A stretch of DNA of 35,670 nt, taken from positions 1 to 35,670 of the forward strand of contig DASVAW010000030.1 in NCBI GenBank assembly GCA_036376135.1, read 5' to 3'. Below are positions 18,394 to 35,530 of the stretch, piece after piece (positions within the stretch are counted from its first letter, which is position 1; each line of letters opens with the position of its first letter). Source of the DNA: Candidatus Polarisedimenticolaceae bacterium (GTDB lineage Bacteria; Acidobacteriota; Polarisedimenticolia; Polarisedimenticolales; DASRJG01). The notes below the pieces were generated by a model, which had not been told where the DNA came from, ran no database searches, and was given only the letters and a program-made list of their open reading frames with translations. The position numbers and the translations under genes were made by a program.

Positions 18394-18452
18394 GGCGGTT
18401 CTCCGGGTTGAAGGTTCCCCGCAGAGATGCCGTCCGCCGCCGCGTCGTTTCG

Positions 18453-20438: not shown

Positions 20439-20466
20439 GAAACCCCCGGGAAACCGGCGGCACCCT
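20439..20466 (+). promoter_or_regulatory. Possible ECF-type promoter of msrA
   Basis: GAAACC (20439-20444), 16 bases, CACCCT (20461-20466), 20 bases before the msrA start. It is close to the pattern GAAACC-N16-CATCCC found before the sigma gene and the lipid operon, and the bases before the -10 (GCGG) also match. It is a variant, so less certain than those. Confidence 0.4.
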
Positions 20467-20486
20467 AACACGGTGGAGGGCAGCCG

Positions 20487-21143
20487 ATGTTCTCGAAGGA
20501 CCCAGGAAAGCTGCGCATCCCCGACACGACCCAGGCCCTTCCCGGACGGACCGCGCCGATGCGGATCACCGGGAAACACCTCGTCCTCGGAACGGTCATG
20601 AAACCCCCATTTCCGGCCGGTTTCGAGCAGGTGCAGGTCGGCCTCGGCTGCTTCTGGGGAGCGGAGCGGAAGTTCTGGCAGCTCCCCGGCGTCCACACGA
20701 CCGCGGTCGGGTACTCGGGGGGGCTCACTCCCAACCCCGACTACGAGGAGGTCTGTTCCGGCCTGACGGGACATGCCGAGACGGTCCTCGTCGTCTACGA
20801 CCCGGCGAAGGTCTCCTTCGACGAGATCCTGCGCGTCTTTTGGGAGAGCCATGACCCCACGCAGGGGATGCGTCAGGGAAACGACCGCGGCACGCAGTAC
20901 CGCTCCGCGATCTATGCCTATTCCGACGCGCAGCTCCGGGTCGCCGAGGCCTCCCGCGACGCCTACCAGGCGAAGCTCGCCGAGGCGGGATACGGCGCCA
21001 TCACGACGGAAATCCGGGAGGCGCCGGAGTTTTACTACGCCGAGGACTACCACCAGCAGTACCTCGCCAAGAACCCGAACGGGTACTGCGGGCTGGGCGG
21101 GACCGGGGTGACCTGCCCGATCGGCGTCGCGAAGGCCACCTGA
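20487..21143 (+). CDS. msrA: Peptide methionine-(S)-S-oxide reductase MsrA, 218 aa
   Basis: The catalytic GCFWG motif is at residues 54-58 (Cys55), followed by [31 protein letters not shown] and EDYHQQYL, all hallmarks of MsrA. A second Cys near the C-terminus ([13 protein letters not shown]) can act in recycling. It repairs oxidised methionine using thioredoxin. The ~45-residue N-terminal lead has no signal peptide, so it is cytoplasmic. GGAGGG precedes ATG 20487. It is divergent from the VUT gene and ends 4 bases from the convergent manC-like gene. Confidence 0.97.
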
Positions 21144-22132: not shown

Positions 22133-23449
22133 TCAGCCGTGATGCGCGGCCTCGAGGGCCGGTTTCGGTTTCGTCTCCGGTTTCACGGCGTCGACGTCGA
22201 GGTACTGCACCAGGTCCTTCGAGAAGAACAGGTCGAGCGTCCAGTCGAGCGCGACGCGCAGCTTCTTCTCGAAGCGGGGAAGCTTCGAGAGATAAATCGT
22301 GCGCCACATCCACCACGCGAGAAAGCCGGAGAAGTTCACGCCGAGAATCCGCGCGACACCCGTGCGTCGGCCGATCGAGGCGAGAAGTCCGAGCGTCGCG
22401 AAGGTGAAGGGGCGGAGGGCTTCTCCGCGGATCGACGCGGCGACGTTGCGGGCGAGCGTGCGCCCTTCGCGGATCGCGTGCTGCGCGGTGGGGGGATGGA
22501 AGCCCCCCGTGCCGTCGGGGACCGACGCCGCGTCGCCCACCGCCCAGACCCCGGGGTGGCCCGGGACGCGAAGGTATGGGTCCACGAGCACGCGCCCGCG
22601 TTCCTTCATACAGGGAAGCTCCGCCAGCATCGGGTTCGCGGCGGTCCCCGCGGTCCACACGAGGGTGCGGGCCTCGACCGTCGTGCCGTCGGTGAGGCGG
22701 ACGAGGTCGCCCTCCACCCTCGAGACCCTGGCCGAGGTGCGGATCTCGACGCCGCGCTCGGCGAGTTTCCGCTGGGCGTACCGCCCGAGCTCGGGGCCGA
22801 GCTCGGGGAGCACCACCTCCTGCGAGTGGACGAGGACCATCCGGAGGTCCTCGCGCTTCACGTTCGGGTAGTGCGGGAGGGCCTCGCGGACGAAGTCGTT
22901 CATCGCCGCGATCGTCTCGACTCCCGCGAAGCCGCCGCCCGCGACGACGAAACCCAGCAACGGGCGCCGCTCGTCGCAGGCGCACTCGGTGTCCGCCTCC
23001 TCGAGGTGCGCGATCATCCGGTTCCGCAGGTGCATCGCGTCGGCGAGCGTCTTCATCGTCCGTGCGCGCTCGGCGACCCCGGGAAGGCCGAAGAAGTTCG
23101 TGACCGAGCCGAGGGCGAGCACGAGGTGGTCGCAGGTGACCTCGTGTTCGTGACCGTCGGAGCCGTGGCGGAGCACCGCCGTCTTCGAAGGAAGGTCCAC
23201 GCGGACGACATCCCCCTCGAAAAACTTCACGCGTCGGAGCAGCTTGCGCACCGGGCTGACGATGTTCGTCGGGTCGAGATCGCTCGCGGCGACCTCGTGC
23301 AGCATCGGCGTGAAGAGGAAGAAGTTCTCCCGGCCGACGAGGGTGATCTCGACGTCGGGGTCGCAGCCGATCGTGCGGTCGAGCTCGAGGGCGGTGTAGA
23401 TCCCGCCGAACCCTCCGCCGAGGATGAGAATCCTTGTCCTGGTCTTCAT
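22133..23449 (-). CDS. Type II NADH dehydrogenase-like FAD oxidoreductase, 438 aa
   Basis: ATG 23449 (MKTRTRILILGGGFGG) is chosen; the first FAD-binding GGGFGG is at residues 11-16, a second dinucleotide fold near residues 165-180 (VAGGGFAGVETIAAM), and the FAD-binding GDAAS near 305. The C-terminal 85 residues carry an amphipathic membrane-binding helix (FSGFLAWWMWRTIYLSKL) typical of NDH-2. It likely moves electrons from NADH to quinone at the inner face of the membrane. No Shine-Dalgarno sequence precedes the ATG. A predicted ECF promoter ends only 9 bases before it, so the mRNA would be nearly leaderless. Confidence 0.9.
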   Translation of the reverse strand: MKTRTRILILGGGFGGIYTALELDRTIGCDPDVEITLVGRENFFLFTPMLHEVAASDLDPTNIVSPVRKLLRRVKFFEGDVVRVDLPSKTAVLRHGSDGHEHEVTCDHLVLALGSVTNFFGLPGVAERARTMKTLADAMHLRNRMIAHLEEADTECACDERRPLLGFVVAGGGFAGVETIAAMNDFVREALPHYPNVKREDLRMVLVHSQEVVLPELGPELGRYAQRKLAERGVEIRTSARVSRVEGDLVRLTDGTTVEARTLVWTAGTAANPMLAELPCMKERGRVLVDPYLRVPGHPGVWAVGDAASVPDGTGGFHPPTAQHAIREGRTLARNVAASIRGEALRPFTFATLGLLASIGRRTGVARILGVNFSGFLAWWMWRTIYLSKLPRFEKKLRVALDWTLDLFFSKDLVQYLDVDAVKPETKPKPALEAAHHG

Positions 23450-23458
23450 GGCGGCGGT

Positions 23459-23486
23459 GGGATGCCGCGCCCGCGTCCCGGGATTC
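23459..23486 (-). promoter_or_regulatory. Predicted ECF sigma promoter of the NDH-2-like gene
   Basis: On the minus strand GAATCC (23486 to 23481), 16 bases, CATCCC (23464 to 23459). It is the mirror of the sigma-gene promoter, and together they form the perfect 11-bp inverted repeat 23458-23468/23507-23517. Start of transcription would be within a few bases of ATG 23449. Confidence 0.55.
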
Positions 23487-23488
23487 GC

Positions 23489-23516
23489 GAAACCGGTTCG
23501 CCCGGAGCGGCATCCC
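23489..23516 (+). promoter_or_regulatory. Predicted ECF sigma promoter of the sigma factor gene (autoregulation)
   Basis: GAAACC (23489-23494), 16 bases, CATCCC (23511-23516), 42 bases before ATG 23559. The same boxes and spacing occur on the opposite strand here and on both strands at 30902-30974. GAAAC-type -35 boxes and 16-base spacing are usual for ECF sigma factors. Confidence 0.6.
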
Positions 23517-23558
23517 AGCTTCGAGTCGGCGCTCCGGGCGCCGAGGGAGGACGCCGGA

Positions 23559-24335
23559 ATGCTGGAGCCCCGGGCCGTCGGATTCTCCGTGACCCACATG
23601 GACGCGCTGGCGGCGTGGGCGATCTGGACCGGCGGGCTGGCCTGCGCGATGTGGACCGCGCACCGGGAACGGCGCCGCCGCGGCGATGCCGATCCGGCCT
23701 CGGGGTTCCCCGTCGGAGGGCCGGTCCCCTCGATCGAGGATCCCGCCGTCGACGCGGACGCCCTGCTCGTCCGACGACTCCGGGCGGGCGAACGGCGCGC
23801 CTTCGAGGACGTGGTCCAGCGCTACAGCGGCCGGATGCTGGCCGTCGCGCGGCGATTCGTCCGCGAGCCGGAGGATGCCCGCGACGTCGTCCAGGAGGCG
23901 TTCATCTCCGCATTCCGCAACTTCGACAGCTACCACGGCGAGGCGCGCCTTTCCACCTGGCTTCACCGGATCGTGGTGAACGCCGCGCTGATGCGGATCC
24001 GCAGCCGGAGCCGCAGGCCGGAGGAGTCGATCGAGGCGTTGCTCCCGAAGTTCGGCGAGGACGGCCACTCGGTGCAGCCCGCGCACCTCTGGGTCGAGAC
24101 GACCCACGAGAGCGTGGAGCGCGAGCAGCGCGCCGCGCTCGTGCGCCGCTGCATCGACGAGCTGCCGGATTCGTACCGGACCGTGCTGCTCATGAGGGAC
24201 ATCGAAGAGCTCGACACGGCCGAGACGGCGGCCCTGCTCGGGACGACCGAAAACGCCGTCAAGATCCGGCTCCATCGCGCGCGGCAGGCCCTTCGCGCCC
24301 TGTTGGACCCCCACCTGCGGAGGACGCGCGCATGA
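23559..24335 (+). CDS. ECF-family RNA polymerase sigma factor with hydrophobic N-terminal segment, 258 aa
   Basis: Region 2 spans about residues 67-140 (RRAFEDVVQRYSGRMLAVARRFVREPEDARDVVQEAFISAF) and region 4 about 190-248 (LPDSYRTVLLMRDIEELDTAETAALLGTTENAVKIRLHRAR), the helix-turn-helix that reads the -35 box. I chose ATG 23559 since GGGAGG lies 8 bases upstream; ATG 23598 lacks one. With either start the protein begins with a likely membrane helix (WAIWTGGLACAMWTA) followed by RERRRR, which is unusual for a sigma factor. Its stop overlaps the start of the anti-sigma gene (ATGA). Predicted ECF promoters here and at 30902-30974 suggest its regulon. Confidence 0.9.
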   Translation: MLEPRAVGFSVTHMDALAAWAIWTGGLACAMWTAHRERRRRGDADPASGFPVGGPVPSIEDPAVDADALLVRRLRAGERRAFEDVVQRYSGRMLAVARRFVREPEDARDVVQEAFISAFRNFDSYHGEARLSTWLHRIVVNAALMRIRSRSRRPEESIEALLPKFGEDGHSVQPAHLWVETTHESVEREQRAALVRRCIDELPDSYRTVLLMRDIEELDTAETAALLGTTENAVKIRLHRARQALRALLDPHLRRTRA

Positions 24336-24583
24336 TCACCTGCCGAGATTTCGTCGAGTTCCTGTGGGCCTACGTCGCCGGGGAGCTCCCTTCCGACCAG
24401 CGATCCGAGTTCGACGCGCACATGGCGATCTGCCCGCACTGCGTCAACTACCTCGACTCGTATGCGAAGACCGTTCGGCTCGAGAAGGCGGCGTTCGAGA
24501 ACCTCGACGAGCCCGTTCCCACCGAGATGCCCGAGGAGCTCGTGAAGGCGATCCTCGCCGCGCGGGGAAAGGGCGGGCGGTAG
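24332..24583 (+). CDS. Zinc-finger (zf-HC2) anti-sigma factor, 83 aa
   Basis: The start overlaps the sigma stop by 4 bases, with GGAGGA upstream. The N-terminal domain has the H30-x3-C34-x2-C37 zinc motif (HMAICPHC) of zinc-binding anti-sigma proteins (ZAS), which hold ECF sigma factors and release them on a redox or other signal. No membrane helix is present, so this is the small soluble type. The C-terminal half is short and charged. The partner must be the sigma factor just upstream. Confidence 0.9.
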   Translation: MITCRDFVEFLWAYVAGELPSDQRSEFDAHMAICPHCVNYLDSYAKTVRLEKAAFENLDEPVPTEMPEELVKAILAARGKGGR

Positions 24584-24608: not shown

Positions 24609-26084
24609 TCAGAGCCTCACCCGATACACGCTCGTCCTTGCCGTGAGGAACAACGTCCTCCCGTCGTCCCCCCCGAATGCGAAGTTCGCCGGGAGCTCGG
24701 GAAGCCGGATCGTGCCGAGGTGTTTCCCCGCGGCGGAGAGGACCCACACGCCGCCGGGACCGGAGACGAAGAGGTTCCCGCGGGGATCGACCTTGATCCC
24801 GTCGAGCGCCTCGGACTCCGGAGCCGCGCCCATGTCGAAGAAGACACGACCGTTCGCGAGACCGCCGTCCGGCCGGACCTCGTAACGCATCACGACCTTC
24901 CTCTTCGGGTCCCAGTTGGCGACGTACAGGTACGTCTCGTCCGGGGAGAAGGCGAGGCCGTTCGGGCCGAGCAGATCCTTCGAGACCACCTTCAACACGC
25001 CGTCCTTCAGTGCGAACACCCCGTAGAAGGGGAGCTCGCGCCGCGGGTCGTCGTGGTACTTCGGAAGCCCGAACGGGGGATCGGTGAAGTAGAGGGTGCC
25101 GTCGGAACGGTAGACGAGGTCGTTCGGGCTGTTGAGACGTTTCCCCTCGAACCGGTCGGCGAGGACGGTGATCGCCCCGTTCGGTTCGAGGCGCACGACG
25201 CGCCGGCGGCCGTGTTCGTCGATCGTGAGACGCCCCTCGGCGTCGAGGGCAAGCCCGTTCGATCCGGGCTGGCCGTATTCACCCACGTCGAGCCCGGCGT
25301 AGCCGCTCTTGGTGCGATAGACGCTCACCTGGCCGTCCGGGGCCCAGCGATAGATCGCGTTCGCGTTGGGGTCGCTGAACAGCAGGTAGCCGCCCTGCTT
25401 CACCCAGACGGGTCCCTCCGTGAACTGGAAGCCCCGCGCCACCCGCTCGAACACCGCGTCCCTCGGAACGACGGCGTCGAGGGCGGGATCGAGGCGTTCG
25501 ACGGTCGCCTTCACGACCTCGAACGCCCCGAGCTTGCCCGACTTGAAGAAGTCCAGAGTCGCCGAACGCACCCACACGCGGTTCTTCGGCGGCTCGGCAA
25601 GTGGACCGTTCGCGGCGAAAACCTCGAGCTTGAACGTGCGACCCGGCTTCGCGTCGGAGGTGAGCACGACCCGGTTGGGGGCGTTGAACCCCTTGATGAG
25701 CGCCCCTCCGGTCTGGCCGAGGACCTTGGGCAACGCCCCGTCCACGCGGATCTCGGCGTAGTCGTCGACCACGATCTCGAAAACGACCGCGTTCCCCGCC
25801 GTCGAGAGGGTCCCGACCTTCTCCGGGATCGTGACGCTCGTCCGGTACCAGGCGAACGCGCGTCCTCCCATGGTGCGGCGGGTCTCGAGGGCTTCCGGGA
25901 GGATCGCCTCGTCGGCCCCGTCCCCCTCGGCGAACCTCCACTGGGCCTTGACGAGCGCGGCGCCCTCGGCCGACTGAAGATCGACGATCGCGTCGGGATT
26001 TCCGGCCACGGGGGCGTCGGGGGTGACCTGGGCGGCGGCGGGGAGCGCCGCGAGCGCAACGGAGAGGACGACCCGGCGCATCAT
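24609..26084 (-). CDS. Exported SMP-30/gluconolactonase-like protein with N-terminal sandwich domain, 491 aa
   Basis: A signal peptide (MMRRVVLSVALAALPAAAQ) starts at ATG 26084, which overlaps the stop of the gene before by 4 bases. Residues about 30-185 look like a galactose-binding-like beta-sandwich (WYRTSVTIP, FEIVVDDYAEIRVDG). Residues about 215-490 form a six-bladed propeller of the SMP-30/LRE family; the conserved metal-binding Glu (FTEGPVW), Asn (NSPNDLVY) and Asp (SPDETYLYVAN) are all visible. Such enzymes hydrolyse sugar lactones. It is therefore likely periplasmic and active; the two-domain form and its neighbours are less usual. Confidence 0.88.
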   Translation of the reverse strand: MMRRVVLSVALAALPAAAQVTPDAPVAGNPDAIVDLQSAEGAALVKAQWRFAEGDGADEAILPEALETRRTMGGRAFAWYRTSVTIPEKVGTLSTAGNAVVFEIVVDDYAEIRVDGALPKVLGQTGGALIKGFNAPNRVVLTSDAKPGRTFKLEVFAANGPLAEPPKNRVWVRSATLDFFKSGKLGAFEVVKATVERLDPALDAVVPRDAVFERVARGFQFTEGPVWVKQGGYLLFSDPNANAIYRWAPDGQVSVYRTKSGYAGLDVGEYGQPGSNGLALDAEGRLTIDEHGRRRVVRLEPNGAITVLADRFEGKRLNSPNDLVYRSDGTLYFTDPPFGLPKYHDDPRRELPFYGVFALKDGVLKVVSKDLLGPNGLAFSPDETYLYVANWDPKRKVVMRYEVRPDGGLANGRVFFDMGAAPESEALDGIKVDPRGNLFVSGPGGVWVLSAAGKHLGTIRLPELPANFAFGGDDGRTLFLTARTSVYRVRL

Positions 26085-26932
26085 CGGGTCTCCTCCACCT
26101 TGACGACGTAATAGAGGAAGGGAGCCTTGACCTCGCGGAACCAGTGCGGCGTCCCCGCCGGGACGACCGCGACGTCCCCCTTCTTCAGCGTGAGGGTCTT
26201 CCCGCCGTCGATCGACGCGCCGCGAACCTCGCCGGGTGCGGTGGACTTTCCATCCACCACGCTCCCGCCGACCACGAACGTCGCCTCGCCGTCGAGCACG
26301 TGGATCGTGTCGGTTTCGGCCAGGTGGACTTCCGCGGCGCCCGCCTTCTCGCGGCGCGAGGCGTGGATCTTGTAACCCGGCACCTCGACGAGGGGCTTTC
26401 CCTCGGCGAAGGCGGCGGCGACCTCCTTCGAGGGGATGAAGGTGGTCTCGGCGGACGCGACCGACGCTCCCGCCGCGGCGGCGACGACGGCGATGTCCTC
26501 GTCCTGCTGGGCGCTCGCGGCTCCGGCGACGCCCACCGCGCCGACGACCTGCCCGTGGACGACGACGGGGACGCCCCCCTGCAGCGGGAGCAGCTCTTCG
26601 TTGGCGACGAGGGAGAGACGGCCGTTCTTGATGGCGTTCTCGAACAGGCTCGTCGGCTTGCGGAAGTTCGCCGCCGAGCGGGCCTTGGCGATCGCGATGT
26701 TGGACGCGGCGGCGAAGGTGCCGTCGAGACGGACGAGGGCGAGCAGGTTGCCGCCGTCGTCGACGACGGCGATCGCGCCGCCCGCGTCGTGCTTGCGGGC
26801 CTCGGCTTCGGCTGCGGCGACGACTGCGCGCGCTCCGCCGAGGGTGAGGGAGGGTTTGTTCTCGACGCGGGGGGCCGCCTGGGCGGCCCCCGCGATCGCG
26901 ACGGACAGGAGAAGGGCGAGCGTGCGGGACAC
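26081..26932 (-). CDS. Exported GlcG/HbpS haem-binding domain fused to a cupin, 283 aa
   Basis: GTG 26932 (SRTLALLLSVAIAGAAQA) is chosen because GGAGG lies 7 bases upstream and a signal peptide follows at once. Residues about 25-155 are a GlcG/HbpS domain (LTLGGARAVVAAAEAEARKH, AIAVVDDGGNLLALVRLDG, PLQGGVPVVV). Residues about 195-283 are a cupin barrel (HLAETDTIHVLDGEATFVVGG, GDVAVVPAGTPHWFREV) with metal-type His residues. HbpS-like proteins bind haem or cobalamin and sense oxidative stress; the joined cupin could bind a metal or act on a small molecule. The fused pair is followed, with a 4-base overlap, by the SMP-30 gene. Confidence 0.85.
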   Translation of the reverse strand: MSRTLALLLSVAIAGAAQAAPRVENKPSLTLGGARAVVAAAEAEARKHDAGGAIAVVDDGGNLLALVRLDGTFAAASNIAIAKARSAANFRKPTSLFENAIKNGRLSLVANEELLPLQGGVPVVVHGQVVGAVGVAGAASAQQDEDIAVVAAAAGASVASAETTFIPSKEVAAAFAEGKPLVEVPGYKIHASRREKAGAAEVHLAETDTIHVLDGEATFVVGGSVVDGKSTAPGEVRGASIDGGKTLTLKKGDVAVVPAGTPHWFREVKAPFLYYVVKVEETR

Positions 26933-26961
26933 GGGGACCTCCAGGGAATGAAGGAAGGGAG

Positions 26962-27336
26962 TTACTTGGCGGCCGGAGTGAAGGAGGCTTCGCCGAGGTT
27001 CACTTCGGCGAAGGCGCACCAGATCTGGACCTTGGCGACGTCCTTCACGTACGAGGGGACGGTGATGGTGCGGTTGACCTTGTCGCCCTTGATCGGCAGG
27101 CGCTGGAGCAGGTAGGTGTTCCCCTTCGAGTCCACGACCTGCCAGTGCGGATCCGGGGTGTCGGGGACCTTGAAGTCATCCGACACGGTGAGGACGATCT
27201 TGCCGCCCTCGTTGGAGTGGGTCACGTAACCGGTGTTGGCCTTCGGCCCCTGGAAGGGGGTCGAATCGTGGGCGGCCAGCGCCGGCGCGGCGACGAAGGC
27301 CAGGACGGCGGCGGCCAGGGTGAGCTTGCGGATCAT
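26962..27336 (-). CDS. Exported DM13-like protein, 124 aa
   Basis: ATG 27336 follows AGGAGA; a signal peptide ends near ALA. The mature part matches a DM13-like fold: LTVSDDFKVPDTPDPHWQVVD at about residues 49-69 and VQIWCAFAEVNLGEASF at about 103-119, with the single conserved Cys in WC. DM13 domains have been proposed to act in electron transfer at the cell envelope, using that Cys. The gene heads the three-gene group with the HbpS-cupin and SMP-30 genes, 29 bases before the first. Confidence 0.78.
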   Translation of the reverse strand: MIRKLTLAAAVLAFVAAPALAAHDSTPFQGPKANTGYVTHSNEGGKIVLTVSDDFKVPDTPDPHWQVVDSKGNTYLLQRLPIKGDKVNRTITVPSYVKDVAKVQIWCAFAEVNLGEASFTPAAK

Positions 27337-27415: not shown

Positions 27416-28864
27416 TCAGCCGCTCCAGGCGGCGACGAGGCGGAGCACGTCGCGCGTCGTCGCGGGGCGCGATCCCCTCTCCACGTTCGCGCGGCCGATC
27501 TCGAAGGCAAGCCGCCACTGCGCGAACAACGTCCTCCACGCGCGGACGACTCCGTGGCGCGGGTCGTAGATGTGCGTCGACTCGGAGAGGACGCCGTTGA
27601 GCTCGAGGATCTTCAGGTTGCGCCCGGCGAGCAGATCCGCCTCGGTCGGGGCGCGCAGGTCGAACCGCCCGAAATGGAAGCCACGGACGCCGCGGGCGAT
27701 CGCGTCGATCGCCGCGATGAGCTCCGGAGTCGCGAACCGCGCGCCGTCGAGGAAGATCGCGCCGCGGCAGTGATTGCCGATCGTCGCCAGCGGGACGCGC
27801 TCGCCATCGGGAGGGATCTCCTCCAGGCGGTCGGCGAGTCGCTCGAGGTAGATCCCCGCCATCGCGACGGCGCGCGGATCGTCCAGCACGAGCGCTTCGA
27901 TGCTGCGGCGGCCGTCGCCGGTGACGAACGGGAGCCTCTTCTCGGTGATCGAGATCACGCGGTCGTCGGCCCAGAACACCCCGAGCTCGGGCCCTTCGAC
28001 GTACTCCTGGATCAACACGTCGCGCGTCGCCTCACGCAACGCGCGGTCGAGCGCCTCGCGGTCGCGCGCGATCACGACCCCCTCGCCGCGCTCGCCGACA
28101 TCGGGCTTCACGACGACGGGGAACTCCGCGGTGTCGGCGGTGCGAAAGGCGGCGATCGGGGCGCCCGACGCGGCGAGCCCCTCGAGGATGGCGCGTTTGG
28201 ACTCGCCGACCAGCCCTCCCGCGGGAAACGCCGGGTTGGCGGCGGTGAAGACCCAGAGCGAACGGTGCTTCAGGGCGAGCCAGGCGACCCAGGCGATGAC
28301 CGGCGGGTAGAACAGACACCGGGGCCAGAACTCCCACCGCGTCCACCGGCGCCAGAAGCCGACGAGCGCGCGCCTTCCCCTCCAGGTGGCGAGCCGCGTC
28401 GCGACGACGAGGGCGAGCGCTCCGAGGACGAAGGCGACCGGAGAAGGCACCGGCAGGGAAGCCGACGCACCCACGAGCAACGGCACCCACACGACCGCTC
28501 CGAGGAGCATCAGAAGGGAGACGCGTACGAGGCTTTCCGCCAGGAGCCCCGAGGCCACGTAGGTCGGAAGACGCATCCCCGGCACGAAGCGCGCGACGAG
28601 GATCGCGGCGTCGCCGCGCCGCGCGAACCAGAGTTCGGCGCGCCGCCAGGCGTCGGCGCGGATGCGGCGCCGAAGCCACGCGCGCCCCGCGCCCCGTCCG
28701 GCGAGCGCCAGCGCGACGTCCCCGACCCAGATGCCGAGCAGGCACGCCAGCGTCGCGGGGAAAAAGCCGAGCTCCCCTCGGGCGACGAGAACCCCCGCCG
28801 CGATGCAGGCGAGGTCCTCGCTCGCCAGCGTGAATAGGGCGAGGCCCGCCAGCAGCGCGGTCAT
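27416..28864 (-). CDS. DedA (VTT) membrane protein fused to an ATP-grasp ligase-like domain, 482 aa
   Basis: The N-terminal ~165 residues are a DedA/VTT membrane domain: E16DLACIAAG, and ARFVPGMRLPTYVASG (91-106) with the family's R92-F-x-P-x-x-R98 signature. A further hydrophobic stretch follows (185-200). From about residue 205 to 440 it reads as ATP-grasp: VVKPDVGERGEGVVI (251-265, Lys253), QEYVEGPE (286-293), and D402, E421 and N423 (FDLRAP, LKILELNG) as likely magnesium ligands. ATP-grasp enzymes join a carboxylate to an amine or other nucleophile; DedA proteins act in lipid-carrier or lipid flipping. It ends the ornithine-lipid operon; start overlaps the DinB stop by 4 bases. Product unknown. 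Confidence 0.85.
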   Translation of the reverse strand: MTALLAGLALFTLASEDLACIAAGVLVARGELGFFPATLACLLGIWVGDVALALAGRGAGRAWLRRRIRADAWRRAELWFARRGDAAILVARFVPGMRLPTYVASGLLAESLVRVSLLMLLGAVVWVPLLVGASASLPVPSPVAFVLGALALVVATRLATWRGRRALVGFWRRWTRWEFWPRCLFYPPVIAWVAWLALKHRSLWVFTAANPAFPAGGLVGESKRAILEGLAASGAPIAAFRTADTAEFPVVVKPDVGERGEGVVIARDREALDRALREATRDVLIQEYVEGPELGVFWADDRVISITEKRLPFVTGDGRRSIEALVLDDPRAVAMAGIYLERLADRLEEIPPDGERVPLATIGNHCRGAIFLDGARFATPELIAAIDAIARGVRGFHFGRFDLRAPTEADLLAGRNLKILELNGVLSESTHIYDPRHGVVRAWRTLFAQWRLAFEIGRANVERGSRPATTRDVLRLVAAWSG

Positions 28865-29388
28865 CGGGCCGCCGCCGACTCCCAGTGGCGAAGGGTCGAG
28901 GGGGCCACGCCGAACTCCTCGGGGGGCTCGATCCCGAAGCTCCGGAGGAACACCGCGACCAGGGCGTAGTGGTGGATCGTGTGGCTCAGCAGCGCGTCGA
29001 TCTCGCGGCCGACCGAGCTCACCGCGTCGCGCGTGCTTCCCTCTCCGCGGGCCCGCAGGCCGCGGTCCGGCGCGCGAGCTTCCGTCGACTCCAGCCGGTC
29101 GGCGAGATCGTCCATGCGTCGCGCCGCCTCGCCGGGAGACGACTCGAACCCCGCGTCGCGGCGACGGCTCTCGTAGTCGATGCGGCCGGCCGCCGCGCCG
29201 TCGAGGAACGCCTCGTAGAACTCCGCGACGTGCCGGAGGTGCTTGCCGATCGTGCCGCCGGGGAGCATCGGCAACGTGGACGTGAACTGCTCGGCGGGGA
29301 GGGAGCGTGCGATCGCGGCCCCCTGCCGGAGCAGCGCCGCATTCAGGAGAAGGCCGCTCTCCGGTGCAGCTGTCGAACCGTCGTGCAC
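28861..29388 (-). CDS. DinB-like four-helix protein, 175 aa
   Basis: GTG 29388, with GGAGG just upstream, starts HDGSTAAPESGLLLNAALLRQG and overlaps the end of the acyltransferase gene by 46 bases. The protein is all helical with the His residues of a DinB-type metal site (GKHLRHVAEFYEAF and LLSHTIHHYALVAVFLRSFG). DinB proteins include thiol-dependent transferases and many of unknown role. Its place between OlsA-like and DedA-ATP-grasp suggests a part in lipid head-group chemistry, which is inference. Confidence 0.8.
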   Translation of the reverse strand: MHDGSTAAPESGLLLNAALLRQGAAIARSLPAEQFTSTLPMLPGGTIGKHLRHVAEFYEAFLDGAAAGRIDYESRRRDAGFESSPGEAARRMDDLADRLESTEARAPDRGLRARGEGSTRDAVSSVGREIDALLSHTIHHYALVAVFLRSFGIEPPEEFGVAPSTLRHWESAAAR

Positions 29389-30101
29389 AAGGCCTCCGCG
29401 AGGACCTTGCGGTCCGCGTGGTGCCGCGCTCCGGGACCGAAGACGACCTTCGCCTCGAATCCCGGCAGCCGCAGCAGGTCGAAGAAGTGCCGGAGAAAGG
29501 TCATGTCGCCCCACCAGGCCACCGCTTCGCGGGCCGAAGGAGACCCCTCCGGCGTGCGGTAGGCGACGGCGCAGCAGGTGAGCGGAGCCGCGCCGGACGC
29601 CGCGGGCTCGAGGAGCGACGACTTGAACGGGAGCACCTGCGATCCGTCGGTACTCGTCCCCTCGGGAAACAACACGACGGAGCGGCCGTGCTCGAGGGCT
29701 CCGCGCATCGCGGCGGCGACCCGGCCGACGTCGGTGCGCCGCTCGCGGTCGATGAAGACGGTGTCCACGGCGCGGGCGAGGTAACCGATCACCGGCCACC
29801 GCGCGACCTCGGACTTGGCCACGAAGGCGCAGTCGGTCAGGGTGGCGAGGATCATCACGTCGATGTAGCTGACGTGGTTCGACACGAGCAGCGTCGCACC
29901 CCTCGGGACCTCTCCCTCGACCGAGACGGTGGCGCCGAAGATCCGGACGAGACCGCGCGACCAGAACCGCTGCACCCGCGCGTTCCACCTCGCGCGCGCC
30001 GATCCCGCGGTCACGACGTGCCCGGCGAACAGGACGAGGGCGACGCCGGCGGTGAACGCCGCGAAAAGCGCGGAGCGGAGCAGGGCGCGCATGAGGCTCA
30101 T
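29343..30101 (-). CDS. 1-acyl-sn-glycerol-3-phosphate/lyso-ornithine-lipid acyltransferase (PlsC/OlsA family), 252 aa
   Basis: The acyltransferase motif HX4D is at His76-Asp81 (NHVSYID), FPEG at 145-148 (LFPEGTSTDG), with an N-terminal membrane helix (about 10-30). PlsC enzymes pass a fatty acid to a lyso-lipid. The gene overlaps the stop of an OlsB-like N-acyltransferase gene by 4 bases; the OlsB-OlsA pair makes ornithine lipids in many bacteria, so here the acceptor is more likely lyso-ornithine lipid than lyso-phosphatidate. Confidence 0.9.
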   Translation of the reverse strand: MSLMRALLRSALFAAFTAGVALVLFAGHVVTAGSARARWNARVQRFWSRGLVRIFGATVSVEGEVPRGATLLVSNHVSYIDVMILATLTDCAFVAKSEVARWPVIGYLARAVDTVFIDRERRTDVGRVAAAMRGALEHGRSVVLFPEGTSTDGSQVLPFKSSLLEPAASGAAPLTCCAVAYRTPEGSPSAREAVAWWGDMTFLRHFFDLLRLPGFEAKVVFGPGARHHADRKVLAEALCTTVRQLHRRAAFS

Positions 30102-30877
30102 GCCCCCCGATTGTGGTCCGAAACGCCCGGCGCGAACAGGCGCAACACCGCCGGGTCCATCGCCGCGAGGTCGATCAGCATCAGGAAGTCGATCGTCTTG
30201 AACGCGCGGTCGATCGCGGGAGGGCCGCAGACCTTCGCGCCGTGGCGAAGGTAGGTGTGGAACAGGATCGGCAGGCGCACCGGCGCCAGCTCGCGCGAGC
30301 GCCCGTCGTCCTCGCAGGCGAACCCCGGGTTCGGCAGGACCTCGAACCCCGGGTGCTGATGTCCCGATCGCCGCAGGTCGGCAAGCGCCCGCAACCCCAC
30401 CGAAGGGTCCTGGCTCGTCAGCGACGAGCACCCGAAAAGGTAACGCTTGCCGTGGGCGAGGACGTATTCGGCCAGCCCGCGCCAGAGAAGGAAGAGCACG
30501 CGGCGGTTGCGGTACGGCTTCGCGATGCAGGCGCGACCGATCTCGACCGCCTCGTCGAGGATCCCGGCGGGGAGTCCCGCGAGGTCGAACTCCCCCGCCG
30601 CGTAGAAGCCGATGCCTTCGCGGGCGCGTTCGGGGGTCTGCAGGCGGTAGGTCCCGACGACCGCGCCGGTGGCGACGTCCTCGACGAGAAGGTGGTCGCA
30701 GAACGCGTCGAAGGGGTCTTCGTCGCGCCCCGTCTTCCACGAGGCGTCGAGCCCCTCGTCGAGCTCGAGGTTGAACACCTCGAAACGCAGCCGAAGCGCG
30801 GCGTCGACGTCGCGGGAGCCCCGCGCGAGGCGAACCCGATATCCCGAGGCAACGGCTTCGAGCGGCACGACGTGCAT
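30098..30877 (-). CDS. OlsB-like GNAT N-acyltransferase (ornithine-lipid first step), 259 aa
   Basis: ATG 30877 follows GGAGGA and starts MHVVPLEAVASGYRVRLA. The GNAT-like fold of the hemolysin/OlsB family is visible: LRFEVFNLELDEGLD, DPFDAFCDHLLVED, VVGTYRLQTPE, EIGRACIAKPYRNRRVLFLLWRGLAEY, YLFGCSSLTSQDPSVGLRAL. Family members join a 3-hydroxy fatty acid to the amino group of ornithine. It is the first gene of a four-gene operon with the PlsC/OlsA partner next. A predicted ECF promoter lies 25 bases before the start. Confidence 0.88.
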   Translation of the reverse strand: MHVVPLEAVASGYRVRLARGSRDVDAALRLRFEVFNLELDEGLDASWKTGRDEDPFDAFCDHLLVEDVATGAVVGTYRLQTPERAREGIGFYAAGEFDLAGLPAGILDEAVEIGRACIAKPYRNRRVLFLLWRGLAEYVLAHGKRYLFGCSSLTSQDPSVGLRALADLRRSGHQHPGFEVLPNPGFACEDDGRSRELAPVRLPILFHTYLRHGAKVCGPPAIDRAFKTIDFLMLIDLAAMDPAVLRLFAPGVSDHNRGA

Positions 30878-30901: not shown

Positions 30902-30929
30902 GCGATGCCGCCTGATGCGGGGTGGTTTC
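30902..30929 (-). promoter_or_regulatory. Predicted ECF sigma promoter of the ornithine-lipid operon
   Basis: On the minus strand GAAACC (30929 to 30924), 16 bases, CATCGC (30907 to 30902), 24 bases before ATG 30877. It differs in one base of the -10 from the promoters at the sigma gene. Confidence 0.5.
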
Positions 30930-30946
30930 ACGAACGCGACGAAAAC

Positions 30947-30974
30947 GGAAACACCCCCCCGCAGCCGGCATCCC
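30947..30974 (+). promoter_or_regulatory. Predicted ECF sigma promoter of the DoxX-to-VOC operon
   Basis: GGAAAC (30947-30952), 16 bases, CATCCC (30969-30974), 17 bases before ATG 30992. The stretch GGCATCCCA is identical to that at 23509-23517 before the sigma gene. Confidence 0.5.
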
Positions 30975-30991
30975 ACGCGCCGGAGGACACG

Positions 30992-31405
30992 ATGGACACC
31001 TGCACCACGCTCACCGGATGGAGGAAGGGGGCCGCCTGGGTCGCCCAGATCGGGGCCGCGGTCATCCTGGCCCAGACGCTCTTCTTCAAGTTCACCGCCG
31101 CCCCCGAGTCGGTCTACATCTTCACGACGCTCGGCATGGAGCCGTGGGGGCGGATCGGCAGCGGGGTCGCGGAGCTCGTCGCCGTCGTGTTGCTGCTCCG
31201 GGCGAGCACCGCGGTCTTCGGGGCCGGGCTCGCCATCGGTCTGATGGGCGGCGCCCTCCAGGCCCATCTCGGCAGGCTCGGCATCGAGGTCCAGGGGGAC
31301 GGCGGGCTGCTCTTCGGGCTCGCCTGCACCGTCCTCGCGGCCTCGCTTGCGATCCTCGTCCTGCGCCGCCGCCAGATCCCGATCCTCGGCGAGAGGTTCG
31401 CGTGA
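30992..31405 (+). CDS. DoxX-like membrane protein, 137 aa
   Basis: ATG 30992 follows CGGAGGA. Four hydrophobic helices are visible, the first with ILAQTLFFKFTAAPESVYIFTTLGMEPWGRIGSGVAELVA, a DoxX-type signature. DoxX proteins are small membrane proteins, some in thiosulfate-quinone oxidoreductases or in envelope redox complexes. It heads five same-strand genes with 4-base overlaps. Confidence 0.82.
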   Translation: MDTCTTLTGWRKGAAWVAQIGAAVILAQTLFFKFTAAPESVYIFTTLGMEPWGRIGSGVAELVAVVLLLRASTAVFGAGLAIGLMGGALQAHLGRLGIEVQGDGGLLFGLACTVLAASLAILVLRRRQIPILGERFA

Positions 31406-33270
31406 GCTCGACTCGACGGGAGTGGCTCGAGGCCGACGGGCTCGGGGGGTTCGCGTCGGGGACCGCGTCGGGGATCCGCACGCGGCGCTACCACGCGCTG
31501 CTCCTCGCCGCGGCCCGCCCTCCCGCCGAGCGATTCGTGCTGGTGAACGGCCTCGAGGCGACCGTGGCGACCGCCGCGGGGCGCTTCGCGCTGAGCTCGC
31601 AGCGTTACGCCCCCGGGGTCGTGCACCCCGACGGCGCGGCGCGGATCGTGTCGTTCACGGCGACGCCGTGGCCGCGCTGGACGTTCCGTCTCGAGGACGG
31701 AACCGTCGTCGAGCAGGAGATCGTCGTGCCGCGCGGGGCGCCCGCGGTGCTCGTGCGTTTCCGCGCGAGCGCTGCGGCGATCCTCACGATTCGGCCCCTG
31801 ATGTCCGGGCGCGACTTCCACGCTCTCCAGCGCGAGAACGGCGCGTTCCGTTTCGACGCCGAGCCCGCGGGCGACGGCGTGCGTTTCCGGCCGTACGACG
31901 GCGTTCCGGCGACCCGCGTGAGGTCGAACGGGATCTACCGGCCGGCTCCGGACTGGTACCGCAACTTCGAATACGAGGAAGAGCGCGCACGCGGCCTGGA
32001 CTTCGTCGAGGACCTCGCGTCCCCGGGGGAGTGGTCGTTCGACCTCTCGACGGGGGAGGCGTGGATGCTCCTCGTCGCGGAGGTTCCGGGGGCGGAGCGC
32101 ACCCCGGAGCCCGAGGCGATCGTCGAACTCGAGCGCGCTCGCTGCGACCGTGCCGTCGAGGCGTACCTCGTCGAGCGCGATCGCGGCCTCACGCTGATCG
32201 CGGGATACCCGTGGTTCGGCGACTGGGGGCGGGACACCTTCATCGCGATCCGGGGACTGTGCCTGGCGACCGGCCGCCGGAAGGAGGCGGGCGCGATCCT
32301 CTCGGCGTGGGCGGGCGCGGTGTCCGAGGGGATGCTCCCGAACCGTTTCCCGGACCATGGCGAGACCCCCGAATACAACAGCGTGGACGCCTCGCTGTGG
32401 TACGCGATCGCGGTCCACGAGTACCTCGCTTCGGGGAAGACCCCGGTGAGAGAGCGCGACCGCCTGCGCAAGGCGGTCGGCGAGATCCTCGAGGGGTACG
32501 CCCGCGGCACGCGCTTCGGGATCCGACTCGACGGGGACGGCCTGCTCGCCTCCGGTGTCCCGGGGGTGCAGTTGACCTGGATGGACGCCAAGGTCGGCGA
32601 CTGGGTCGTTACCCCGCGCACCGGCAAGGCGGTCGAGATCCAGGCGTTGTGGCTCAACGCCCTGCGCGCCGCCTCGGCGTGGGATCCGCGTTGGACGGAA
32701 ACCTGGCGACGCGGCTCGGAGTCGTTCGTCACGCGCTTCTGGAATCCCGAACGCGGCTACCTCCTCGACGTCGCCGACGTCGACCACGTTCCCGGCCGCG
32801 ACGACGCGAGCTTCCGGCCGAATCAGATCCTCGCCGTCGGCGGCCTCCCCTGGAGTCTGCTTCCGCAGGCGGAGGCCCGGCGCGTGGTCGATGCCGTCGA
32901 GGCGCGGCTGTGGACGCCGCTCGGACCGCGCTCGCTCGCACCGGGCGAGCAGGGCTACGTCCCGCGTTACGCCGGCGGCGTGCTCGAACGCGACGGCGCC
33001 TACCACCAGGGGACCGTCTGGCCGTGGCTCGCGGGGCCGTTCGTCGAGGCGTGGGTTGCGGTGCGCGGCGGCACGATCGAGGCGCGGCGGGAGGCGCGCG
33101 CGCGGTTCCTCGAGCCGCTGCTCGCCCACCTCGACGACGCCGGGCTCGGCCACGTCTCCGAGATCGCCGATGCCGAGGCGCCCCACGAGCCGAAAGGGTG
33201 CCCCTTCCAGGCATGGTCGCTCGGCGAGCTGCTGCGCCTGGACCGCGTCGTGCTGCGGGAGGCGGCATGA
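31402..33270 (+). CDS. Glycogen debranching enzyme (amylo-alpha-1,6-glucosidase family), 622 aa
   Basis: GTG 31402 overlaps the DoxX stop (GTGA), with GAGAGG upstream. The N-terminal domain begins WLEADGLGGFASGTASGIRTRRYHALLLAA, and the C-terminal (alpha/alpha)6 glycosidase domain shows AGYPWFGDWGRDTFIAIRGL, MLPNRFPDHGETPEYNSVDASLWY, TWMDAKVGDW, KAVEIQALWLNAL and GTVWPWLAGPFVEAW, characteristic of the bacterial debranching family with acidic catalytic residues. It trims alpha-1,6 branches of glycogen or a like glucan in the cytoplasm. It overlaps the aquaporin gene by 4 bases. Confidence 0.93.
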   Translation: MSSTRREWLEADGLGGFASGTASGIRTRRYHALLLAAARPPAERFVLVNGLEATVATAAGRFALSSQRYAPGVVHPDGAARIVSFTATPWPRWTFRLEDGTVVEQEIVVPRGAPAVLVRFRASAAAILTIRPLMSGRDFHALQRENGAFRFDAEPAGDGVRFRPYDGVPATRVRSNGIYRPAPDWYRNFEYEEERARGLDFVEDLASPGEWSFDLSTGEAWMLLVAEVPGAERTPEPEAIVELERARCDRAVEAYLVERDRGLTLIAGYPWFGDWGRDTFIAIRGLCLATGRRKEAGAILSAWAGAVSEGMLPNRFPDHGETPEYNSVDASLWYAIAVHEYLASGKTPVRERDRLRKAVGEILEGYARGTRFGIRLDGDGLLASGVPGVQLTWMDAKVGDWVVTPRTGKAVEIQALWLNALRAASAWDPRWTETWRRGSESFVTRFWNPERGYLLDVADVDHVPGRDDASFRPNQILAVGGLPWSLLPQAEARRVVDAVEARLWTPLGPRSLAPGEQGYVPRYAGGVLERDGAYHQGTVWPWLAGPFVEAWVAVRGGTIEARREARARFLEPLLAHLDDAGLGHVSEIADAEAPHEPKGCPFQAWSLGELLRLDRVVLREAA

Positions 33271-33989
33271 ACGCGCTGATCGAGGCGGCGGCGCTGGGCA
33301 CGTTCATGGTGTCGGCGAGCGTCTTCACCGTGTTGCTCGAACACCCGGCTTCACCCTTCCGCGCCGCGATTCCGTCGGACGACGCGAGGCGGCTGCTGAT
33401 CGGGATCGCGATGGGGCTCACGGCGATCGGGCTCATCTACTCCCCGTGGGGCCGCCGCTCCGGGGCGCACATGAACCCCGCGGTGACCCTCGCGATGTGG
33501 CGGCTGAAGAAGATCCCCGGCCCCCAGGCCGCCGGCTACGTCGCCGCGCAGTTCGTCGGCGGGGTGGCCGGGATGCTCGTCGCGAGGCTCCTGCTCGGGA
33601 GCGCCCTCGAGCACCCGGCGGTGAACTTCGTCGCGACGGTTCCGGGCTCGGCCGGGTCGGGCGCCGCCTTCGCGGCGGAGCTCGCGATCTCGTCGATCCT
33701 GATGCTGGCTGTGTTGGCCGCCTCGAACACCCCGCGGCTCGAGCGCTTCGCCGGAGTCGTCGCCGGGACCCTCGTCGCGACCTGGATCTTCCTCGAGGCG
33801 CCGCTCTCGGGGATGAGCATGAACCCCGCGCGCACCTTCGCGTCGGCGGCGGTCGGGAACGTGTGGGAGTCCTGGTGGATCTACTTCACGGCGCCTCCGA
33901 CCGGCATGGTGGCGGCGGCGTCGCTCTATTCCGCCCTGAGAGCGGGGCACGTGCGTTGCCTCTGGCACGCCTGCGAGGCGAGTCGATGA
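33267..33989 (+). CDS. MIP/aquaporin channel, 240 aa
   Basis: Two NPA motifs are present (HMNPAVTLA at about residue 70 and SMNPARTFA at about 187) in six hydrophobic helices, the hallmark of aquaporins and glycerol facilitators. The start overlaps the debranching stop (ATGA). It carries water, glycerol or another small neutral solute across the inner membrane; selectivity residues were not resolved by eye. Confidence 0.92.
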   Translation: MNALIEAAALGTFMVSASVFTVLLEHPASPFRAAIPSDDARRLLIGIAMGLTAIGLIYSPWGRRSGAHMNPAVTLAMWRLKKIPGPQAAGYVAAQFVGGVAGMLVARLLLGSALEHPAVNFVATVPGSAGSGAAFAAELAISSILMLAVLAASNTPRLERFAGVVAGTLVATWIFLEAPLSGMSMNPARTFASAAVGNVWESWWIYFTAPPTGMVAAASLYSALRAGHVRCLWHACEASR

Positions 33990-35530
33990 ACGACAACCGC
34001 TACGACGTCATCCTCATCGGCACCGGGGCGGGGGGCGGCACGCTCGCCTGGAAGCTCGCTCCCTCAGGGAAGCGCATCCTGATCCTCGAGCGCGGCGGCT
34101 ACGTCCCGCGCGAGAAGGAGAACTGGGACCCGAAGCTCGTCAACGTCGAAGGGCGTTACCAGGCGAAGGAGACCTGGTACGACCGGAACGGCAAGCCGCT
34201 GCACCCGCACACGAACTACTTCGTCGGCGGGAACACGAAGTTCTACGGCGCGGCGCTGTTCCGGATGCGCGAGCGGGACTTCGGAGCGTTGCGCCACGCG
34301 GGGGGCGTCTCCCCCGAGTGGCCGATCGCCTACGCCGACCTCGAGCCGTATTACACGCAGGCCGAGCGCCTCTACCAGGTCCACGGGGAGCGCGGCGTCG
34401 ATCCGACCGAGCCCGAAGCGTCGGCTCCGTACGCCTACGCGAAGGTCTCGCACGAGCCGCGGATCCAGAAGCTCCACGACGCCCTCGAGAAACTCGGGCA
34501 CCGGCCGTTCCACGTTCCGCTCGGGATCCGGCTCGACGAGTCCAACCCTCGGAAGAGCGCGTGCATCCGCTGCAACACCTGCGACGGCTTCCCTTGCCTC
34601 GTGCGCGCGAAATCCGACGCCGAGGTGATGGCGGTCGAGCCGGCGCTCCAGCACGCGGGCGTGACCCTGCTCACCGGCGCGTACGTCGAGCGCCTCGAAA
34701 CCGACGCGTCGGGACGTTCCGTCACGAGGGTGCACGTCGTGCGCGACGGCGAGCGCGAGGTCTACGAGGGCGGGATCGTCGTCGCCTCGTGCGGCGCGAT
34801 CAACTCCGCCGCGCTGCTCCTGCGCTCGGCGAACGACCGCCACCCGCAGGGGCTCGCCAACGGCTCCGGAATGGTCGGCCGCCACTACATGGGGCACACG
34901 AACTCCGTCCTGATGGCGATCTCGAAGGAGCCGAACGCAACCGTCTTCCAGAAGACCCTCGCGTTGAACGACTTCTACTTCGGCTCGAAGGAGTGGGACC
35001 ACCCCATGGGGCACATTTCCTTCGTCGGCAAGCTCGACGCAGAGACTCTGGCCGGCGGGGCGCCGCCGTTCGTGCCGGGGCTGACCCTCGACGTGATGGC
35101 GAAACACTCCCTCGACTTCTGGCTGACCTCCGAGGATCTTCCCGATCCCGACAACCGCGTCACCCTGAATCGCGACGGGAAGATCGTCCTCGCCTACACG
35201 CCGAACAACGAGGAAGGGCACAAGCGGCTGATCGCCAAGCTCAAGGACCTCCTCGGGCATCTCGACTGTCGCGAAACCCTGATTCCGAGAAACCTGTTCG
35301 TCGGGCAACGCATCCCGTTGGCGGGGGTCGCCCACCAGTGCGGGACCCTGCGGTTCGGCCACGATCCCGAGACCTCGGTGCTCGACGTGAACAACAAGGC
35401 CCACGAGCTCGACAACCTGTACGTGGTGGACGGGAGCTTCTTCCCGTCGAGCGGCGCGGTGAACCCGGCGCTGACGATCATGGCGAACGCGCTGCGCGTC
35501 GGGGATCACCTCCTGGAGCGGCTGTCGTGA
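33986..35530 (+). CDS. GMC-family FAD oxidoreductase with four-cysteine cluster, 514 aa
   Basis: The FAD-binding GTGAGGG lies at residues about 12-18 (VILIGTGAGGGTLAWKL, then LERGG). Central parts show YFVGGNTKFYGAALFRM, and the C-terminus carries the catalytic-site stretches HQCGTLRFGHD and VDGSFFPSSGAVNPALTIMANALRVGDHL with His and Asn. Residues C193, C196, C199 and C204 form a C-x2-C-x2-C-x4-C cluster, not part of the core GMC fold. The family oxidises alcohols or sugars. No signal peptide. Overlaps the aquaporin stop by 4 bases. Substrate unknown. Confidence 0.92.
   Translation: MNDNRYDVILIGTGAGGGTLAWKLAPSGKRILILERGGYVPREKENWDPKLVNVEGRYQAKETWYDRNGKPLHPHTNYFVGGNTKFYGAALFRMRERDFGALRHAGGVSPEWPIAYADLEPYYTQAERLYQVHGERGVDPTEPEASAPYAYAKVSHEPRIQKLHDALEKLGHRPFHVPLGIRLDESNPRKSACIRCNTCDGFPCLVRAKSDAEVMAVEPALQHAGVTLLTGAYVERLETDASGRSVTRVHVVRDGEREVYEGGIVVASCGAINSAALLLRSANDRHPQGLANGSGMVGRHYMGHTNSVLMAISKEPNATVFQKTLALNDFYFGSKEWDHPMGHISFVGKLDAETLAGGAPPFVPGLTLDVMAKHSLDFWLTSEDLPDPDNRVTLNRDGKIVLAYTPNNEEGHKRLIAKLKDLLGHLDCRETLIPRNLFVGQRIPLAGVAHQCGTLRFGHDPETSVLDVNNKAHELDNLYVVDGSFFPSSGAVNPALTIMANALRVGDHLLERLS

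Follow-up and report, generated by a model that had tools for sequence, protein, structure and literature searches.

The window considered here, the entire 35,670-nt contig C30 of a 4.38-Mb genome in 179 contigs (G000), makes up 0.8% of that genome and contains at 30902–30974 a short region separating two divergent operons, which raises the question of whether both are transcribed from promoters of one alternative sigma factor and, if so, which one. A preliminary description had noticed similar boxes on both strands of this region and of a second divergent region 7 kb away, and had read them as an envelope stress regulon. From the evidence given below, we consider it quite likely that the region carries back-to-back ECF promoters belonging to a damage-repair and membrane-lipid regulon of an ECF sigma/zinc-finger anti-sigma pair.

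Both boxes claimed for the region are indeed present, the minus-strand one (GAAACC-N16-CATCGC) at 30929–30902 as GAAACC-ACCCCGCATCAGGCGG-CATCGC and the plus-strand one (GGAAAC-N16-CATCCC) at 30947–30974 as GGAAAC-ACCCCCCCGCAGCCGG-CATCCC. The former (30902–30929), which can also be written as GAAACC-N12-GCGGCATCGCA, has its −10 end 24 nt from the ATG of olsB and is the putative promoter of a minus-strand operon coding for an OlsB-like acyltransferase (Acetyltransf_5; 30098–30877), an OlsA-like lyso-ornithine lipid acyltransferase (29343–30101), a DinB_2 family protein (28861–29352) and a VTT (DedA-like) domain fused to ATP-grasp (27416–28864). The OlsB and OlsA assignments are based on Pfam and sub-cutoff NCBIfam matches. 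The VTT-ATP-grasp protein at the end of the operon is 482 aa long and represents an unusual fusion. The plus-strand box (30947–30975; (G)GAAAC-N16-CATCCCA), with its −10 end 17 nt from the ATG, precedes plus-strand genes for a DoxX-like small membrane protein (30992–31405), a glycogen debranching enzyme (GDE_N/GDE_C; 31405–33270), a MIP family aquaporin/glyceroporin (33267–33989) and a GMC oxidoreductase (33986–35530). While the box of this operon stands, its "DoxX" label is weak, the Pfam DoxX_2 match having an E-value of 0.0078, below the cutoff.

The second divergent region includes a putative autoregulatory box of the sigma/anti-sigma operon (23489–23517, plus strand; GAAACC-N12-GCGGCATCCCA, i.e. 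GAAACC-N16-CATCCC) and a predicted promoter box of the gene coding for an NDH-2 type pyridine nucleotide-disulfide oxidoreductase (box 23458–23486, gene 22133–23449, both minus strand; GAATCC-N12-GCGGCATCCCA, i.e. GAATCC-N16-CATCCC), whose −10 box is only 9 nt from the ATG, so the mRNA would be near-leaderless. According to the gene calls, which were made with a home-made caller, the −10 boxes lie 9 to 42 nt 5′ of the NDH-2, DoxX-like, olsB and sigma starts. The spacing, described earlier as the same in all four sites, is shared by three of them (GAAAC-N17-CATC) but not by the DoxX-side site (GAAAC-N16-CATC), which is out of register with a spacer one base shorter, inside the normal ECF tolerance. 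The similarity around the −10 element is longer than first noted, with GCGGCATC in three sites and CCGGCATC in the fourth. The two promoters of the NDH-2/sigma region are also arranged as an inverted repeat with perfect 10-bp arms, GGGATGCCGC...GCGGCATCCC (23459–23516). Only 2 bases separate their −35 boxes, so simultaneous occupancy of both is probably impossible.

The sigma factor encoded at 23559–24335 (plus strand, likely start ATG 23559 behind GGAGG) matches only Sigma70_r2 and Sigma70_r4_2 (with overlapping r4) in Pfam and thus has regions 2 and 4 and no region 3. The adjacent, co-oriented anti-sigma gene (24332–24583) overlaps the sigma stop, the two ORFs sharing 4 bases, and codes for a soluble 83-aa zf-HC2 protein with C4, H30, C34 and C37 and an H-x3-C-x2-C motif (HMAICPHC), a zinc motif which is retained in homologues. 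The candidate targets share an AAC-type −35 and a common −10, GAAAC(C)-N16/17-CATC-N-N-A in 17 aligned sites. Judged by domains, motif and promoter type, the pair is a group IV (ECF) sigma with a class I zinc (ZAS) anti-sigma. The HbpS-cupin and SMP-30/gluconolactonase genes adjoining the pair (24609–27019) have the same neighbourhood in G034 (contig C22), a genome from a different taxonomic order, and no box was found before them.

The recurrence of the boxes had been called unlikely by chance and a genome-wide motif scan proposed, which was carried out here and showed the tight patterns to be rare, concentrated in the window and located 5′ of genes. Three sites in the 4.38-Mb genome, all in the window, match the 16-position pattern GAAWCC-N12-GCGGCATCSC exactly. 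GAAAC-N14-CGGCATC has exactly four matches (0.43 expected genome-wide, 0.0035 in the window), three of which lie in the window just 5′ of the genes for the sigma, OlsB and the YHS protein and the fourth, as good as those in the window, on contig C146, 83 nt before a gene coding for a TIGR04169 arsenosugar-biosynthesis-associated peroxidase-like protein followed by ArsS; its one-mismatch matches were intragenic in 21 of the 24 cases checked. Since this pattern was partly derived from the window sites, held-out tests were used. With a weight matrix built from the two NDH-2/sigma-region sites only and applied to 318 upstream regions, in a sample of roughly 0.6 Mb of the genome (the pattern searches covered all of it), the olsB, msrA, DoxX and YHS promoters outranked all other unselected upstream regions, i.e. 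those not fetched because of a match (hypergeometric p about 5e-6 for the four window promoters). The four sites of the preliminary description all exist, and the held-out ranking brings the count in the window to six, adding a box before msrA (20439–20467, plus strand; GAAACC-N12-GCGGCACCCTA, with CACC as the −10) and one before a YHS gene (18424–18451, minus strand; GAAACG-N12-ACGGCATCTC). The former is located 20 nt from the ATG of the MsrA peptide methionine sulfoxide reductase gene (20487–21143, plus strand), and the latter 30 nt from that of a YHS domain-containing (seleno)protein gene (NF041384; 17941–18393, minus strand).

It is scarcely credible that the boxes are short GC-rich words chosen by eye: the looser GGAAAC-N16-CATC does occur at the coding background in this genome, but such an explanation is contradicted by the genome-wide uniqueness of the tight patterns, by the leave-out ranking and by two results given below, the co-distribution of the boxes with the sigma factor and an A column that had not been selected for, so that the original judgement on chance holds. 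An excess of GGAAAC-N16-CATC was itself rejected as support (11 matches in the genome, 10 of them outside the window and 9 of those intragenic), and so was an enrichment of GAAAC-Nk-CATCC over the reversed pattern, whose spacing spectrum has the coding period of 3 and nearly all of whose matches are intragenic; loose patterns are therefore uninformative. A weaker box, GAATCC-N12-CCGGCTTCGC, was observed 36 nt before a ferritin gene on contig C8 (L293, 9417–9390), a possible further regulon member.

Conservation of the boxes in related genomes, also suggested earlier as a check, was studied among Acidobacteriota, using the exact GAAAC-N14-CGGCATC across 41 genomes from the class; the lineage is represented almost only by metagenome-derived genomes, and the comparison set includes one genome of the same family (G001) and none of the same genus. 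In G016, which belongs to another family and has a sigma homologue with 54% identity, all four matches are intergenic, 12–60 nt before genes for a VTT protein, an ArsM-like methyltransferase, an Msr and TIGR04169, and a search with GAAACC-N15/16-CATC brings in two more, OlsB (37 nt) and an orthologue of the window MsrA (24 nt). Positions no more than 60 nt 5′ of a start account for 7 of the 19 G016 matches but for none of the 20 matches in three genomes that lack a close homologue of the sigma (p = 0.003). A G016 match 5′ of trxA was dropped, being 444 nt away and inside an apparent uncalled reverse-strand ORF. Boxes were also found before VTT, DinB and MsrB-type genes in G018, before TIGR04169 and MsrA genes in G004, and in G010 between the anti-sigma gene and the VTT gene directly behind it. 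Msr genes with upstream boxes, as judged from sequence, are present in G000 (the CACC variant), G004, G010, G016 and G018.

When MsrA, OlsB and TIGR04169 orthologues were taken together, GAAAC-N16/17-CATC preceded 9 of the 17 cases from sigma-bearing genomes, defined as having a close homologue of the window sigma (at least 52% identity), versus 0 of 38 cases from other genomes (p = 4e-6), and in 7 of 14 versus 0 of 38 when the own genome was left out (p = 2.6e-5), both p-values being optimistic because the genomes are related and not independent. No spacing other than 16 or 17 stands out in this comparison, and the GC content is equal. A point against the regulon reading is that in the same-family genome G001 neither msrA nor TIGR04169 has a box; among 80 OlsB homologues from many phyla, no upstream box was found above background. 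The third base after CATC, a column which the class-wide and relative searches left out of account, is A at 16 of the 17 aligned sites versus 5 of 43 coding matches (p = 2e-9), as well as in all four sites with the 16-base spacer, so the −10 element is CATC-N-N-A, which is close to the familiar ECF CGTC-N-N-A. Between G018 and G029, two members of one genus, the promoters of DinB have retained GAAAC and GCGGCATCCGAGA and diverged in spacer and flanks, which is a classical footprint. G018 also contains candidate boxes 130 nt before a sigma-70-like gene and 37 nt before a RuBisCO-like gene, the latter without the conserved A (contigs C81 and C90).

The rarity and placement of the boxes, their conservation in sigma-bearing genomes only and the G018/G029 footprint support the suggestion that a single alternative sigma factor uses them as promoters, and they are very probably the signature of a real stress regulon. 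An alternative in which they are operators of a DNA-binding regulator would make the inverted repeat of the NDH-2/sigma region, with its perfect 10-bp arms, a regulator-binding site; it is very improbable, since msrA, YHS, TIGR04169 and all the targets in relatives have single non-palindromic boxes, and the fixed −35/−10 spacing, the A after CATC and the distances of 12–60 nt to many starts suit promoters.

If the boxes are ECF promoters, the sigma factor reading them is probably the one encoded at 23559–24335. Two paralogous ECF sigma factors with 55–58% identity are encoded in the same genome (C110:7928–8500 and C120:28963–29574), so it is from the clustering of the boxes and their co-distribution that we infer the cognate sigma. 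These paralogues share most DNA-contacting regions with the window sigma, and the sigma homologue of several box-bearing relatives lies among other genes and has no box of its own, which would fit a different or additional sigma reading the boxes; we nevertheless regard this as unlikely, as the window boxes cluster around and precede the window sigma, with three of the four exact matches in 0.8% of the genome. A box is present before the window sigma and before none of its readable close homologues, including both paralogues, so autoregulation has not been conserved among them, and the promoters could be shared by a paralogue. The C110 copy, like the homologues in G001 and G016, is located behind a small STAS-like ORF, and in the latter two genomes the C-terminus of a Fis-type regulator is found further upstream.

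With the window sigma as the most probable reader, 30902–30974 would contain back-to-back promoters for one ECF sigma with the consensus −35 GAAAC(C), 16–17 bases and an extended −10 (GCGG)CATC-N-N-A, the leftward one driving the OlsBA-DinB-VTT operon and the rightward one the DoxX-like/debranching/MIP/GMC operon. The sigma factor, encoded 7 kb away with the same box before itself and the divergent NDH-2 gene, would be held in unstressed cells by the zinc-finger anti-sigma with its C4/H30/C34/C37 residues and freed by an inducing signal, probably oxidative or thiol-reactive; it would then induce MsrA for methionine sulfoxide repair, redox enzymes, the operon of the AhpD-like peroxidase-like protein and ArsS, and membrane lipids based on amino acids. 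Promoter activity, the identity of the sigma factor and the inducing signal are what we infer here from sequence. The envelope stress label is half right: OlsBA and the VTT membrane proteins are predicted targets, but the members found across families are Msr and the AhpD-like peroxidase-like/ArsS operon. The recurring members, namely Msr, TIGR04169, VTT, DinB and OlsB, point to oxidative damage repair together with a change of membrane lipids and not to envelope stress alone.

More tentatively, GAAAC-N12-GCGGCATCNNA may represent a conserved, undescribed ECF promoter class of uncultured Acidobacteriota, with unusual GC-rich back-to-back divergent promoters, that places methionine sulfoxide repair, the synthesis of phosphorus-free ornithine lipids and metabolism of the arsenosugar type (ArsS/TIGR04169) under a common stress regulon; a literature search found no relevant sigma regulon combining Msr with ornithine lipids or including ArsS. 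A promoter pattern picked out by eye has become a regulon that can be tested and has a defined consensus in an acidobacterial lineage, which predicts joint control of Msr, ornithine-lipid and ArsS-linked genes and offers a first functional guess for the DinB_2, VTT and YHS genes of these genomes.

Among known systems, the best NCBIfam resemblance of the window anti-sigma is to the zinc anti-sigma RsrA of Streptomyces SigR-RsrA (TIGR03988, 2.8e-7), although it scores below the equivalog cutoff (30.5 bits versus 62.5), and SigR promoters read GGAAT-N18-GTT, which differs from the present boxes. The anti-sigma of Caulobacter crescentus sigmaF is NrsF (CC3252), a DUF1109 membrane protein unlike the window zinc-finger anti-sigma. 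The ECF regulon of sigmaF is small and includes a DoxX gene, and autoregulation is weak under metal stress, but the promoter, GTAACC-N16-CGAA, is unlike the present consensus (PMC3511200). In Haemophilus influenzae, RpoE2-HrsE responds to hypochlorite, its regulon contains MsrAB and a DoxX operon, and the sigma gene is located near msrAB; little or no autoregulation was described, and HrsE is related to the neisserial anti-sigma and small, though with 67 aa versus 83 aa here and in a different phylum (PMC7907618).

The system resembles sigmaE-MseR of Neisseria meningitidis more closely than a pure envelope-stress regulon. There, a small ZAS anti-sigma is encoded behind the ECF sigma, MsrA/MsrB is a main target, and the MseR residues C4, H30, C34 and C37, of which the three cysteines were essential, were examined (PMC2893595); Cys4, His30, Cys34 and Cys37 of the window anti-sigma are at the very same positions. 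Msr is a target of the neisserial sigmaE and, going by the boxes, of the present system, and the sigmaE regulon includes a DoxX gene cluster (summarised in PMC7907618). The −35 elements differ, GTAAGGTT for Neisseria sigmaE versus GAAAC here, and the available part of PMC2893595 reports no ornithine-lipid or arsenosugar genes for that regulon; the likeness drawn here is one of function. With methionine sulfoxide reductases and the AhpD-like/ArsS operon as recurring members, the system is similar to oxidative (hypochlorite-type) ECF regulons. Taken together, the results suggest that ECF stress responses of the MsrA/DoxX type also exist outside Proteobacteria. By analogy, the present system would work like the neisserial and Haemophilus Msr/DoxX systems with a different promoter consensus.
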